From positions 1 to 53,368 of the forward strand of contig CANPVU010000009.1 of assembly GCA_947581765.1 (NCBI GenBank): 53,368 bases of DNA, given 5' to 3'. The position numbers and the translations under genes are program-made. The stretch is from an uncultured Bacilli bacterium (GTDB lineage: Bacteria; Bacillota_I; Bacilli_A; RF39; UBA660). This document shows positions 33,528 through 40,110 of this stretch, piece after piece. The notes under the pieces were generated by a model, which saw only the letters and a list, made by a program, of their open reading frames with translations, was not told the DNA's origin and ran no database searches. How positions within the stretch are numbered: the first letter of the stretch is position 1; each line of letters begins with the position of its first letter.

Positions 33528-34070
33528 ATGGGAAAAGTAATTGCAATAGTTGGAATGTGTGGTTCCGGTAAATCAATAGCAACAGAAATTTTGGAAAATG
33601 AACTTGGTTATAAAAAAGTATATTTTGGTGGAGTGACAATGGAGAAGATTAAAGAAGAAAATTTAGAAGTTACTCCTGAAAACGAAAAATATATAAGGGA
33701 AAAATTAAGAAGTGAACTAGGTATGGGAGCGTTTGCAAAAATACTTTTACCAAGAATTAAAGAATATTCTAAAGATAATGATGTAGTTTTAGATGGACTA
33801 TATTCATGGGATGAATATAAAATATTATCTGAAGAAATAGATAATATTAAAGTGATTGCTGTGGTAGTTGATAAAAATATTAGATATTCAAGATTAAACG
33901 AAAGACAGATAAGAGGATTAAGTATAGAACAAGCAATGAATCGTGATATATCTGAAATAGAAAATATTGCTAAAGGAGGCCCAATAGCATTCGCAGATTA
34001 TTTCATTTTAAATAATGGAGATATGGATTTGTATAGAAATAGATTATTAGAAATAATAAATGAAATATAG
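33528..34070 (+). CDS. P-loop nucleoside/CoA kinase-like protein
   Basis: Small P-loop kinase with Walker A GMCGSGKS (9-16), an AVVVDKNIRYSRLNERQIRG LID-like basic segment and a C-terminal ADYFILNNGD end. ELGMGAFAKILLPRIKEY and VVLDGLYSWDEYKIL match dephospho-CoA kinase-like and UPF0200-type P-loop proteins better than adenylate kinase. Canonical CoaE motifs are only partly present, so the substrate is open. It starts directly after the transporter stop and 11 bp before alaS, suggesting co-translation. Ribosome site GGAGGAAAAATA overlaps the upstream gene. Confidence 0.75.
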   Translation: MGKVIAIVGMCGSGKSIATEILENELGYKKVYFGGVTMEKIKEENLEVTPENEKYIREKLRSELGMGAFAKILLPRIKEYSKDNDVVLDGLYSWDEYKILSEEIDNIKVIAVVVDKNIRYSRLNERQIRGLSIEQAMNRDISEIENIAKGGPIAFADYFILNNGDMDLYRNRLLEIINEI

Positions 34071-34081
34071 AAGGTGATATT

Positions 34082-35824
34082 ATGAATTTAAAAGATTTAT
34101 ACCTAGATTTTTTCGAAAGTAAAGGTCATAAGAGAATACCTAGTGCACCTGTTGTACCAGAAAATGATCCATCAGTATTATTTAATACAGCAGGTATGCA
34201 ACCATTAATACCATATTTAATGGGACAACCACATCCATATGGAAAAAGATTATGTTCTGTTCAAAAATGTATGAGAACTGTTGATTTAGATGAAGTAGGG
34301 GATAAAACACATCATACCTTTTTTGAAATGTTAGGAAATTGGAGTTTAGGAGATTATTTTAAAACTGAATCAATTGAATGGAGCTTTGAATTCTTAACTA
34401 AAGTATTAAAAATTCCTACTAAAAGATTAGCTGTGACAGTATTTGCTGGTAATGAATTATTACCATTTGATCAGGAAACTCATGATAAATGGTTAAGCTT
34501 GGGAATAAGTGAAGATAGAATTGCTCCTACTAAAGACGATAATTTTTGGATAGCAGGAGAAGTTGGACCATGTGGAACGGATTCTGAAATTTTTTATTTT
34601 AGAAGTGATGATGAAATACCTGATAAATTTGATCCAGAGGATGATAGATGGGTTGAAATATGGAATAATGTATTTATGCAATATAATAAAACTATAGATA
34701 ATAAATTAACAGATTTACCTAATAAAAATGTTGATACTGGTATGGGTGTTGAACGTGTTGTTGCAATATTAGAAGGTGTAAATGATAACTATTTATCTAG
34801 TATATGGAAAGATGTAATTGATAAAATATGTGAAATTTCTAATTTATCTTACGAAGGTAATGAATATAGTATGCGTATTGTAGCAGATCATATTAGGACA
34901 GCTGTTTTTATAGCTAGTGATCCATCTGGTATAAAACCAAGTAATACTGATCAAGGATACATACTAAGAAGATTAATAAGACGTGCAATTAGACATGCTA
35001 AACAATTAAATATAGATATAAATAGTAATTGGGAAGAAGAAATAGCTAAAATAATTATTGATAAATATAAAAAGTACTATACTGAATTAGATGAAAATGC
35101 AAGTGTAGCACTTAATGTATTAAAAGATGAAAAAAATAAATTCAGTCGTACTTTAGAAAAAGGTTTAAGAGAATTTGAAAAAGTATCTAGAAATAATAAA
35201 GATATAGATGCAACTGATGCATTCCATCTATATGACACATATGGTTTTCCAATAGAGCTTACAGAAGAATTAGCTAAAGAAAAAGGATTAAAAGTAGATA
35301 TTGAAGGATTTAAAATTAAATTTAAGGAACATCAAGAATTATCACGTACTGCTTCTGCTGGAAAATTTAAAGGTGGTTTAGCAGGAAATAGTGAAATTGA
35401 AACAAAGTATCATACAGCAACTCATTTACTTAATGCTGCATTAAAAATTGTAGTTGGTCCAGATACTCATCAAAGAGGTTCTAATATTACATCAGAAAGA
35501 ATGAGATTCGATTTTAATTGTGATCATAAATTAACAGATGAAGAAAAAAATAGGGTAGAAGAGTTAGTTAATAAGTGGATAGATGAAAGATTAGATGTAA
35601 CTGTTACAAAGATGAAAAAAGAAGATGCCTTAAAATCTGGTGCAGAATGTATGTTTATTGAAAAATATCCAGATATAGTTACTGTATATAGTATTGGCGA
35701 TATATCAAAAGAATTATGTGGTGGTCCACATGTAAAAAATACTAGTGAATTAGGACATTTTAAAATTAAGAAAGAAGAAGCTAGTAGTGCTGGTATAAGA
35801 CGTATTAAAGCAATATTACAGTAG
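34082..35824 (+). CDS. alaS: Alanine--tRNA ligase lacking the C-terminal region
   Basis: Charges tRNA-Ala and edits Ser/Gly mischarging. The class II catalytic domain (1-about 230; FNTAGMQPLIPYLMGQ, KCMRTVDLDEVGDKTHHTFF, NIDTGMGVERV), the tRNA-binding domain (to about 420) and the editing domain are present; zinc/editing ligands are H444, H448, C546 and H550. At 580 residues, the DHHA1 and C-Ala domains (about 300 residues) are missing; the next gene starts 1 bp after the stop, so it is not a local frameshift. The editing motif is CGGPH, not the usual CGGTH. It appears to be the short AlaRS form seen in some reduced bacteria; whether it is the only alaS is unknown. Confidence 0.9.
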   Translation: MNLKDLYLDFFESKGHKRIPSAPVVPENDPSVLFNTAGMQPLIPYLMGQPHPYGKRLCSVQKCMRTVDLDEVGDKTHHTFFEMLGNWSLGDYFKTESIEWSFEFLTKVLKIPTKRLAVTVFAGNELLPFDQETHDKWLSLGISEDRIAPTKDDNFWIAGEVGPCGTDSEIFYFRSDDEIPDKFDPEDDRWVEIWNNVFMQYNKTIDNKLTDLPNKNVDTGMGVERVVAILEGVNDNYLSSIWKDVIDKICEISNLSYEGNEYSMRIVADHIRTAVFIASDPSGIKPSNTDQGYILRRLIRRAIRHAKQLNIDINSNWEEEIAKIIIDKYKKYYTELDENASVALNVLKDEKNKFSRTLEKGLREFEKVSRNNKDIDATDAFHLYDTYGFPIELTEELAKEKGLKVDIEGFKIKFKEHQELSRTASAGKFKGGLAGNSEIETKYHTATHLLNAALKIVVGPDTHQRGSNITSERMRFDFNCDHKLTDEEKNRVEELVNKWIDERLDVTVTKMKKEDALKSGAECMFIEKYPDIVTVYSIGDISKELCGGPHVKNTSELGHFKIKKEEASSAGIRRIKAILQ

Positions 35825-35825
35825 T

Positions 35826-37406
35826 ATGGAAAAAGTAAATTATCAATTAAAATTAGATGAAATAATTAAAAGTTTAGATGGTAAAACACCTAAACTTTTA
35901 TTACATGCTTGTTGTGGACCATGTAGTAGTTATGTACTAGAATACTTAAGCAATTATTTTGAAATAACAATTCTATTTTATAATCCAAATATATATCCTA
36001 AAGAAGAATATGAAAGAAGATTATCTGAATTAGAAATATTTTTACCAAAAGTAAATTATAAAAATAAGGTAAATTTAATTAAAGATGAATATATACCTAG
36101 TGATTACTATAATTCAGTTAAAGGATTAGAATTATTAGGTGAAAAAAGTCAAAGATGTTTTGAATGTTATAAATTAAGACTTTTAAAAGCTGTTAAATAT
36201 GCAAAAGACAATGGATATGATTATTTTACAACGACATTATCTATTAGTCCTTATAAAATTAGTAGTTGGATTAATGAAATAGGACAGGACTTAGAAAAAG
36301 AATATAATATAAAATATTTATATTCTGATTTTAAAAAGAATAATGGTTATAAAAGATCACAGGAATTATCTAGACAATATGGAATGTATAGACAAAATTA
36401 TTGTGGATGTTCTTTTTCTAAAAGAGAACGAGAAAAATTTGAAGAAGATAGAATTAATGATATGTTTAGTAAAGTATTACAATTATATAATTTAGGTAAT
36501 ATTATAAAAGATAAAACTAAATTAAGTGGTGGAATAACTAATCAAGTATATAAAATAGATACAGATAAAGAAAGCTATATAGTTAAAATATTAACTACTA
36601 AAGATATAAATAGATATGAAATATCAGAAAATATTTCTTCTGTAGCGCATAATAATGGTATAGAATCATTGTGTGCTATTAAATTAAATGATAAATATGT
36701 TACTAATATAAATGGATTAAATATATGCGTATATCCTTATTTTGATGGTAAAGTGCTTCTTACAAAGGAATTAACATTGGAACATGTAAGATTACTTGCT
36801 AATAGTCTTTCAAGGCTACATGCGATTAAAATTGAAAATAAAATAGATGTTATTAAGTATGAAAAGCATGACTTAAAATATTTATATTCTAAACTATCTA
36901 ATAAAGAATGTTTTAAATTATTCATTGATAATTATAATAAAATTAGTAATATATATGATAAAGTATATGATTCATATATTAGGTTATCTAATAATTATTC
37001 ATATGTACATAGAGATTTTAATAGAAAAAATGTATTATGGAATTCTATGAATTATAAAATAATTGATTGGGAAACCTCTACAATAGGTAATCCAAGTATA
37101 GACTTTTTTAACAGTGCATGGTTTTTAACTAATGATATAGAAGAAGATAAATTTAATACGTTTGTAAAAGAATATTTAAAAAATAATAAGTTATATGATG
37201 ACTATAACTTATCTATATATGCAGCATTAATAGAAGAATGTAATTGGTTAGTTTTCTCTATTAAAAGAGCACTTAGAATAAATACTAATGATGAATATGA
37301 AATAAAAATGGGACAAGATTCTATAAATAGTAGTGTAACAGAAATATTAAATTATTATAGTAAAATAGATTTAATGCTAAAATTACTAGATAATATTAAA
37401 AAATAA
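35826..37406 (+). CDS. Fusion of QueH epoxyqueuosine reductase and an APH/LicA-like kinase
   Basis: Residues 1-215 are QueH (DUF208), which reduces epoxyqueuosine to queuosine in tRNA: HACCGPCSS (C29, C30, C33), RCFECY (C111, C114), and NYCGCSFS near 195, all Fe-S/catalytic cysteines kept. Residues 218-526 are an aminoglycoside-phosphotransferase/choline-kinase-like kinase: LSGGITNQVYKI (Gly loop), VHRDFNRKNVLW (His395, Asp397, Asn402), IIDWE (Asp414). Both halves look complete and are in one frame with no stop, so a single two-domain protein is likely. The kinase substrate is unknown. It starts 1 bp after alaS, probably coupled, and ends at a terminator. Confidence 0.88.
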   Translation: MEKVNYQLKLDEIIKSLDGKTPKLLLHACCGPCSSYVLEYLSNYFEITILFYNPNIYPKEEYERRLSELEIFLPKVNYKNKVNLIKDEYIPSDYYNSVKGLELLGEKSQRCFECYKLRLLKAVKYAKDNGYDYFTTTLSISPYKISSWINEIGQDLEKEYNIKYLYSDFKKNNGYKRSQELSRQYGMYRQNYCGCSFSKREREKFEEDRINDMFSKVLQLYNLGNIIKDKTKLSGGITNQVYKIDTDKESYIVKILTTKDINRYEISENISSVAHNNGIESLCAIKLNDKYVTNINGLNICVYPYFDGKVLLTKELTLEHVRLLANSLSRLHAIKIENKIDVIKYEKHDLKYLYSKLSNKECFKLFIDNYNKISNIYDKVYDSYIRLSNNYSYVHRDFNRKNVLWNSMNYKIIDWETSTIGNPSIDFFNSAWFLTNDIEEDKFNTFVKEYLKNNKLYDDYNLSIYAALIEECNWLVFSIKRALRINTNDEYEIKMGQDSINSSVTEILNYYSKIDLMLKLLDNIKK

Positions 37407-37407
37407 T

Positions 37408-37444
37408 AAAAGCCTCATTCATTTGTACATGAATGGGCTTTTTA
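37408..37444. terminator. Bidirectional terminator
   Basis: AAAGCC / GGCTTT with an inner CATTCAT/ATGAATG stem, and A/T tracts both sides. It serves the QueH-kinase gene and the minus-strand lipoprotein gene. Confidence 0.85.
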
Positions 37445-37459
37445 TATAATTTTTAATAC

Positions 37460-37903
37460 TTAATTACATATATATTCTTTTTCTTCTAAAACTTTTTTAT
37501 TTGCTTCATAATCTTCTGAACCATTAAACCCTAGTTCTTCTTTTTCTTCTTGTGTCAATACATTATAATCAAATAATATTTTAAAATTAAATGACCTATC
37601 AGATTCTTTATTAGAATTAATAGTAACACCTTTATATTTTTTATATTCATTTTCATATTGTTGTTTTATTGAATCGTAAAATGTTTGTGACATATTAATT
37701 GTAGTATCATCTAAAGAAAAGTCTAATCTAATATCTAAATTATTTATTTTATTTTTATCAAATGTTATGTTATATGTTTGAGTCATTTCAACACCTTGGG
37801 TAACACTAGATGATTTTTTACATTCTAATTTTTTTTCTTTACTACATCCAGTAGATAATAAAATTACAATAAATATAGTAAAAATACTAAACACTTTTCT
37901 CAT
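37460..37903 (-). CDS. Lipoprotein, 147 residues, paralogue of the next
   Basis: Membrane-anchored exported protein: IFIVILLSTGC gives a lipobox (Cys about 20). The mature part carries the pattern C...GVEMTQTYNITFDKNKINNL...YDSIKQQYENEYKKYKGVTI...GSEDYEANKKVLEEKEYIC, shared with the protein from 38151-38807 and faintly like the DUF1307 (YehR) lipoprotein fold, which I cannot confirm. Two cysteines, near residue 27 and the C-terminus, could pair. Ribosome site GGAGGTACAAAG on the minus strand. Function unknown. Confidence 0.78.
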   Translation of the reverse strand: MRKVFSIFTIFIVILLSTGCSKEKKLECKKSSSVTQGVEMTQTYNITFDKNKINNLDIRLDFSLDDTTINMSQTFYDSIKQQYENEYKKYKGVTINSNKESDRSFNFKILFDYNVLTQEEKEELGFNGSEDYEANKKVLEEKEYICN

Positions 37904-38150: not shown

Positions 38151-38807
38151 TTATTTACAAACGTATCCTTGTCTTTCAAAAGCTGCTTTATTTACTTCAT
38201 AATTTTCTGAACCACCCATACCCATAGCAATTTTGTCTGTTGATGATAATTTAGTAAAATCCATACTTATAGTAATTCTTCCTTTAGTTGAAGATGTTTG
38301 ATTAGCAGAAATTGTTACTCCTTGATATTTACCATATTGTGTATTATATTGATTTTTTAAAGTATTAAAGTAAGTTGCTGATGCACTTGCAAGATTACTT
38401 GGTAATTCAATATCCATATATATAATCATACTTGTTACTTTATCACCTTGGAATGTAACATCGTTAATTTGAGTAATTTTAACACCATTATTAGAATTCA
38501 TTGTAGTTGAACAATTTAATTTTTTTACACCTGAATTACTTGGTATATTATTTGATGTATTACTTACTACATTAGAATTACTTGTTATATTAGGATTACT
38601 TACTACATTAGAATTACTTACTATATTAGAGTTACTTACTATATTACTTGTTATGTTACTATTAGAGTTACTCATTACATCACTTGTTGTGTTACTATTT
38701 GATGCGTTTGATTCTGGGTTAGTTGGTTCTTCTTTTCCTTTATCAAAACAACCTGTTAATAAAGTTATCATGAAAATAATTGCAAAATATTTAAAATACT
38801 TCTTCAT
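38151..38807 (-). CDS. Lipoprotein, 218 residues, with Asn/Ser/Val repeat linker
   Basis: Lipobox LLTGC (Cys about 20). Residues 28-95 are a repeat linker of about eight SNSNVVSN/SNSNITSN-like hexa- or octapeptides. The C-terminal domain (96-218) matches the 147-residue lipoprotein along its length: GVKITQINDVTFQGDKVTS, YFNTLKNQYNTQYGKYQGVT, MGGSENYEVNKAAFERQGY and a terminal Cys. The two are tandem paralogues of which this one gained a spacer. GGAGGAGTGATAAAAT precedes the ATG on the minus strand. Function unknown. Confidence 0.8.
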   Translation of the reverse strand: MKKYFKYFAIIFMITLLTGCFDKGKEEPTNPESNASNSNTTSDVMSNSNSNITSNIVSNSNIVSNSNVVSNPNITSNSNVVSNTSNNIPSNSGVKKLNCSTTMNSNNGVKITQINDVTFQGDKVTSMIIYMDIELPSNLASASATYFNTLKNQYNTQYGKYQGVTISANQTSSTKGRITISMDFTKLSSTDKIAMGMGGSENYEVNKAAFERQGYVCK

Positions 38808-38892: not shown

Positions 38893-40110
38893 TTATTTAC
38901 TATTTAATAAATTTATTTTATCATATATATTTTTTTTATTTAATTCATATTTTGATGTATCTTTTGGAACGTAGTATTTTCTATTTTTTATTTTATCTGG
39001 TAAATATTGTTGTTTTACATAGGCATGAGGATAGTCATGAGGATATTTATATCCTATAGCAGACGTTTTAATATGTGATGGAACATTGCCAGTATCATTA
39101 TTTTCTATATCTTTTAATGCTTCATCAATAGCTAAAATAGCACTGTTTGATTTAGGAGAAAGTGCTAAATCTATTACCATTACTGCAAGAGGTATGCGAG
39201 CTTCTGGTAGCCCTAATCTTTCACAAGTGTTTATACAAGCATCAACTCTCATTCCCATATCAGGATTTGCAAGTCCTATATCTTCATATGCAATAACACT
39301 CATACGTCTATATATTATATCTAAATCTTCTGCCTCTATTAATCGTGCTAAATAATATATAGCAGCATTAACGTCAGATCCTCTAATACTTTTTTGAAAA
39401 GCACTTATTACATCATAATGTCCATCTTCATTTTTATCATGAAAAAATACAGGTTTACTATTAACTGATTTTACAACATCCTCATCTATTTTAAAATCAT
39501 TAGTAGAATAATATGCTACTTCAAGTAAATTATATGCATTTCTCATATCTCCATTAGATATTGCTGCTATTCTTTTAATAGCATCTTCAGTTATACTTAT
39601 ATTTGGTAAATATTCACTATTTTTAGCTTTATTTAATCCTTCAATTACATCTTCTAAATCTAACTCTTTAAGTTCAAATATTTGACATCTACTTCTAATT
39701 GCAGGATTTATTTTATGGTATGGATTAGATGTAGTCATTCCTATTAATGTTATTAATCCATTTTCTAAATATGGAAGTAATAAATCTTGTTTATCCTTAT
39801 TTAATCTATGTATCTCATCCATTATCACTACTATACCTTTATACATTTTAGCTTCTTCTATTACAATATCAAAATCTTTTTTATTATTTATAGTAGCATT
39901 TAACATTCTATATTGTAAATTTAGTTCATTAACTATAGCAAGTGCCATACTTGTTTTTCCTGTTCCTGGTTTACCATATAATATCATCGAAAATATTCTT
40001 TTATTTTTAATTAGATTACTTAATATTTTATTTTCACCAAGTAAATGTTTTTGACCTAAAATATCTTTACTTGTCTTAGGTCTCATTTTAATTGCTAATG
40101 GTTCATTCAT
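38893..40110 (-). CDS. rarA: RarA (MgsA) replication-associated recombination ATPase
   Basis: AAA+ ATPase of the clamp-loader branch that acts at stalled replication forks. N-terminal MRPKTSKDILGQKHLLGENK, Walker A GKPGTGKTSMA (about 45-55), Walker B IVVIMDEIHRLNK, sensor 1 MTTSNP, NPAIRSRCQIFEL, then the RarA C-terminal tetramerisation domain beginning HYDVISAFQKSIRGSDVNAA and ending KIKNRKYYVPKD. All ATPase residues are kept; 405 residues is normal. GGTGATATT precedes the ATG on the minus strand. Confidence 0.95.
   Translation of the reverse strand: MNEPLAIKMRPKTSKDILGQKHLLGENKILSNLIKNKRIFSMILYGKPGTGKTSMALAIVNELNLQYRMLNATINNKKDFDIVIEEAKMYKGIVVIMDEIHRLNKDKQDLLLPYLENGLITLIGMTTSNPYHKINPAIRSRCQIFELKELDLEDVIEGLNKAKNSEYLPNISITEDAIKRIAAISNGDMRNAYNLLEVAYYSTNDFKIDEDVVKSVNSKPVFFHDKNEDGHYDVISAFQKSIRGSDVNAAIYYLARLIEAEDLDIIYRRMSVIAYEDIGLANPDMGMRVDACINTCERLGLPEARIPLAVMVIDLALSPKSNSAILAIDEALKDIENNDTGNVPSHIKTSAIGYKYPHDYPHAYVKQQYLPDKIKNRKYYVPKDTSKYELNKKNIYDKINLLNSK

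Follow-up and report, generated by a model that had tools for sequence, protein, structure and literature searches.

Organization of the locus

The window, by which we mean the whole stretch of 53,368 nucleotides that was analysed, contains an open frame in which a QueH domain is followed by a small-molecule kinase domain. As the original prediction had it, the frame is uninterrupted (526 codons, stop-free, in one MAG assembly) and starts 1 bp behind alaS, with the alaS stop at 35822-35824 and the ATG of the fused ORF at 35826. The features of the locus are as follows.

34082-35824, plus strand: alaS, short form, 580 aa, 1 bp 5' of the fused ORF (NCBIfam PRK01584, 5.9e-230)
35826-37406, plus strand: QueH-kinase fused ORF, 526 aa (single open frame)
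35826-36440, plus strand: QueH half, epoxyqueuosine reductase domain, residues 1-205 (PF02677, 7lc5, genus QueH)
36441-36461, plus strand: seam, residues 206-212, EEDRIND (alignments, insertion scan)
36450-37403, plus strand: kinase half, APH/homoserine-kinase/choline-kinase fold, residues 209-526 (PF01636, AlphaFold2, PDB)
37414-37437, plus strand: terminator-like hairpin (intrinsic) with a T-run, just 3' of the fused ORF (sequence)
38893-40110, minus strand: rarA/mgsA-like AAA+ ATPase, convergent (PF12002, 1.5e-53)

The alaS gene is of the PRK01584 type, with a tRNA_SAD editing domain at its end, and just 5' of it lies a small P-loop nucleotide-kinase-like protein (AAA_18/AAA_17; 33528-34070) of no specific family. 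Two lipoprotein-like ORFs (37460-37903 and 38151-38807 (-)) are found between the fusion and rarA. Neither had a Pfam match above cut-off, and the second contains an Asn/Ser-rich low-complexity stretch.

The sole source of the fusion is one MAG of an uncultured bacterium with a small genome (1.22 Mb in 37 contigs, 87% complete). Its genome record (G000:C9) carries the 526-aa frame without stops, as a self-match of the window ORF. Local reading covered the initial 20 kb of every other contig (40 kb for contig C1), and genome-wide statements below come from genome searches.

The QueH domain

A Pfam domain search recovered both halves, each far above chance and with its catalytic motifs intact, which bears out the original description of a complete QueH joined to a complete kinase. 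For the first half, PF02677 (QueH) matched residues 24-201 over the entire profile (positions 1-175 of 175; 3.4e-67; 226.3 bits versus a cut-off of 23.5). The cysteine motifs C29-C30-G-P-C33, R-C111-x-x-C114 and C193-G-C195 are all present. The QueH of T. maritima (PDB 7lc5; 8.1e-33) aligned as a full-length domain with the CC, CxxC and CGC cysteines in common; CCAPD of the T. maritima protein is CCGPC in the fused QueH, a departure that the aligned standalone relatives share. Unlike known QueH, the fused protein runs on into a second enzyme.

Within the genus, QueH was matched in 10 of the 11 other genomes (G010 gave no match), always as a standalone protein ~198-210 aa long. The QueH part of the fusion is 60-70% identical to these proteins, or 56% for a match in G009 that extends past the stop. 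The surroundings are conserved as well: across the genus queH comes after alaS, either immediately or separated from it by one small ORF, and in five relatives rarA is the immediate, convergent downstream neighbour of queH, so that rarA defines the distal border of the kinase insertion.

Of the queuosine-pathway genes named with the original prediction, tgt and queA were both found in the genome, which gives QueH its pathway partners, whereas QueT was not detected; nor was the QPTR transporter. A search of the genome for Qng1 returned no match, but neither did the same search of control genomes, so that this negative is uninformative. Given its family and intact motifs, the QueH half is predicted to reduce epoxyqueuosine in tRNA after the action of Tgt and QueA.

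The kinase domain

The second half matched PF01636 (APH) over residues 232-451 (profile positions 4-226 of 239; 3e-15; 57.1 bits versus a cut-off of 23.2). Its motifs H395-R-D-F-N-R-K-N402 (HRDxxxxN) and D414-W-E416 (DWE) are intact. In alignment A2, H187, D189, N194 and D206 are invariant, and the catalytic positions are kept across 14 homologues. AlphaFold2 modelled the kinase half with a pLDDT of 91.8 and a pTM of 0.89. When this model was compared with the PDB, the leading matches were 2ppq, a homoserine kinase (Z 25.2, 3.6 A, 296 residues), and 3i0o, a spectinomycin phosphotransferase (Z 24.7, 2.9 A, 300 residues), closely followed by N-acetylhexosamine kinases, YihE and choline kinases. 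The protein thus shares with the APH superfamily (2ppq, 3i0o, N-acetylhexosamine kinase, choline kinase) a whole-domain fold at Z 20-25 as well as the HxDxxxxN and DWE motifs, but its identity to the solved structures is just 10-16%. NCBIfam gave no family at cut-off for this half; scores for thiamine kinase / homoserine kinase families were far below threshold (33.3 versus 299.45 bits and 31.4 versus 271 bits), and a GntI match was also sub-threshold. We suggest that the kinase half phosphorylates a small molecule unrelated to queuosine, perhaps an antibiotic-like compound or a metabolic alcohol. A model of both domains together was poor (pLDDT 66, pTM 0.48) and so is uninformative on domain contact. 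An anti-phage role was also considered, and PADLOC gave no match.

Choline had been put forward as one possible substrate, in which case the domain would be a choline kinase of the LicA type that supplies surface decoration by LicD. The fold is indeed shared with LicA (Z 20.3) and the genome contains five LicD genes. However, a separate bifunctional protein is encoded on contig C1, which also carries four of the LicD genes:

L130:1619-3214, minus strand: LicC-LicA bifunctional protein, G000:C1 (1jyk, 4r77, PF01633)

This protein matched CTP:phosphocholine cytidylyltransferase (1jyk) at 7.2e-32 and LicA (4r77) at 6e-20. The Choline_kinase profile PF01633 detected it at 6.7e-17, whereas the window protein gave no match to that profile at E up to 1. 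The fused ORF is not beside licC or licD; its neighbours are alaS, the lipoprotein-like ORFs and rarA. Since the genome already has LicC-LicA, a second LicA would not be needed, and we regard a choline role as highly improbable. The LicC-LicA gene, with LicD genes elsewhere on C1, lies in a polysaccharide-like cluster, possibly for phosphocholine decoration.

The junction between the domains

The seam falls where two ordinary proteins would meet. It coincides with the natural end of QueH and with the natural start of the kinase: I210 of the fusion aligns with the initiator Met1 of the G051 kinase, which is standalone. A chimeric contig was ruled out, because the kinase is inserted between alaS and rarA, conserved flanks that border queH in the genus. 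Codon usage fits as well (0.55 and 0.47 for the two halves versus 0.43-0.54 for the window genes).

The two genes could also be separate in the cell, the MAG having dropped a single base at the seam (in the A5 homopolymer, for instance), so that a 205-aa QueH would be followed by a kinase translated from the ATG at 36462 by translational coupling. A one-base insertion at 36427-36441, the A5 run included, would end QueH at 205 aa. In an insertion scan, 21 of the 47 seam positions yielded a QueH of this length, which is the genus length, and for this reason an error has to be kept in view. The restriction of the fusion to one fragmented MAG points the same way. On the other side, chance alone readily places an out-of-frame stop nearby when the genome is AT-rich, and A5 runs are rarely miscalled by short-read assemblers. 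The Shine-Dalgarno energy before the ATG at 36462 was -1.5 kcal/mol, internal ATGs averaging -1.0 kcal/mol, and no Shine-Dalgarno above background was found there, unlike at most standalone relatives (-2.1 to -11.5 kcal/mol in eight standalone kinases). The kinase therefore seems dependent on translation of QueH. Overall, we consider a sequencing or assembly error unlikely, with roughly one chance in a handful of being correct.

Rarity of the fusion and other QueH fusions

Recurrence in other genomes, on which the original prediction had staked the fusion, was not seen: a whole-protein search of 386 family and 395 class genomes (overlapping samples) gave no second QueH-kinase fusion among the matches listed. 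A two-domain match, had one existed, would be expected to rank high in such a listing, and its absence is a further point in favour of an error. The junction pattern was not seen in viral contigs, a negative that carries no weight, no plasmid or phage record covered 80% of the query, and the fusion has no close sister gene. The original prediction knew of no described QueH-kinase fusion; likewise, no mention was found in the published literature searched, and the architecture is apparently so far unreported.

Nevertheless, QueH has acquired C-terminal partners elsewhere. QueH-TM-Amidase_3 proteins of 689 and 658 aa, 41% identical over their full length, are encoded in G252 and G333, two species of one genus:

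L068:2308-4374 (G252), minus strand: QueH-Amidase_3, N-acetylmuramoyl-L-alanine amidase (Pfam; probable TM segment by eye)
L069:4154-6127 (G333), plus strand: QueH-Amidase_3, N-acetylmuramoyl-L-alanine amidase (Pfam; probable TM segment by eye)

In a third case, QueH is joined to a GNAT acetyltransferase in one frame of 385 aa (L120; G511:C79:13500-16800). All three resemble our protein in carrying an extra C-terminal enzyme in frame with QueH, and the partners are unrelated to the kinase. The existence of these proteins makes a kinase fusion plausible, which counts against the error explanation. The variety of partners (kinase, membrane amidase, GNAT) across genomes of this family and class suggests that QueH fuses with its neighbours by stop loss, and it makes guilt by fusion weak evidence of function for QueH.

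Several other long frames were noted. N-terminally extended QueH proteins occur in L119 (G448; extension of ~245 aa) and L122 (G667; ~120 aa), the extensions having no Pfam match, and in G348 a 213-aa ORF lies inside a longer open frame. On inspection, the long open frames that contain QueH in G083 and G061 proved not to be fusions.

Genomic context of the kinase homologues

Homologues of the kinase (E <= 1e-15) were present in 27 of the 386 family genomes, this genome included; the kinase is a patchy accessory gene. The closest relatives among the matches listed, in G051 (52% identity) and G252 (46%), are standalone and lie at loci unrelated to queH. We read 27 kinase neighbourhoods of 2.4-11 kb each and found no QueH-like frame in any of them. 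Of the readings offered by the original prediction, the best is the one in which the kinase and QueH are just co-regulated. Other neighbours, named by eye, included GNAT-like proteins, P-loop kinases and a second kinase-like ORF. Of four frames of ~630 aa, three or more encode tandem APH-APH kinases (L101:4651-6543, L103, L104).

The kinase might instead act within the queuosine pathway, its substrate being a salvaged precursor, a nucleoside, or the tRNA or an intermediate, with the fusion channelling the step; the original prediction had also raised queuosine or a salvage intermediate as its substrate. To our knowledge no kinase is known in bacterial queuosine metabolism, and if this reading were true, the present one would be the first. 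The fusion to a queuosine enzyme is itself an argument in its favour, and the supply of preQ1 is unexplained, since neither of the known transporters, QueT and QPTR, was found in the genome. One homologue, in G337 (31% identity; locus L107:3858-6111), precedes tgt by 89 bp in the same orientation, and this part of the evidence would be a second trace of a link. At L107:3858-6111, the kinase homologue and tgt come after genes for ribosomal proteins L13 and S9 (named by eye).

Against this, tgt, queA and queH are all absent from the surroundings of 26 of the 27 kinase loci. By a rough estimate (54 neighbour slots and three queuosine genes among ~1,200), ~0.1-0.2 such neighbours would be expected by chance at 27 loci, and we take the single case observed to be within chance. 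Moreover, among the matches listed, the kinase is missing from most of the family genomes in which QueH was matched. The known salvage enzymes that free queuine, QueK and Qng1, are nucleoside hydrolases and QueL acts as a lyase, with no kinase among them (PMC11130926). The same classification rules out QueK as a queuosine kinase (PMC11130926). We judge a queuosine substrate weakly supported and improbable.

The neighbourhoods also bear on a regulatory role, in which the kinase, through phosphorylation of a protein or of tRNA, would control QueH or the translation machinery that adjoins it. Such a role could be read from a weak RIO1 profile match (22.8 bits versus a cut-off of 22) and from the YihE-like fold. 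Small-molecule kinases dominate the fold matches, however, and the homologues occur without QueH at the loci read, so this reading appears very unlikely, ranking only above the choline role.

Origin of the fused protein

The explanation that we favour as probable is that two complete neighbouring genes fused recently, in this lineage alone, giving two independent enzymes on one chain rather than a novel machinery for tRNA modification. We infer the following order of events. The queH gene would have been the last in an alaS operon when an accessory APH-type kinase gene arrived downstream, between queH and rarA. Loss of the queH stop and of a short spacer would then have produced a single polypeptide, and the kinase would have gained constant translation from the housekeeping alaS-queH operon. 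Chemical coupling of the two halves would not be required at any stage. Two observations count against a fusion of independent enzymes: its presence in a single genome and, as a weak hint of a queuosine link, the G337 homologue beside tgt.

In queuosine salvage, fusions of TGT to transporters have been taken as a functional clue, as the partner serves the same pathway (PMC11130926). Our protein likewise joins a queuosine-pathway enzyme to another domain, but, unlike in the TGT-transporter fusions, the relatives of the partner do not associate with queH. A fusion to a queuosine enzyme could flag a missing salvage step, and our survey suggests caution in reading it that way. The QueH-amidase fusion, being maintained in two species, may merit more attention than the kinase fusion. 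The QueH-Amidase_3 genes are followed by response-regulator-like and histidine-kinase-like ORFs.
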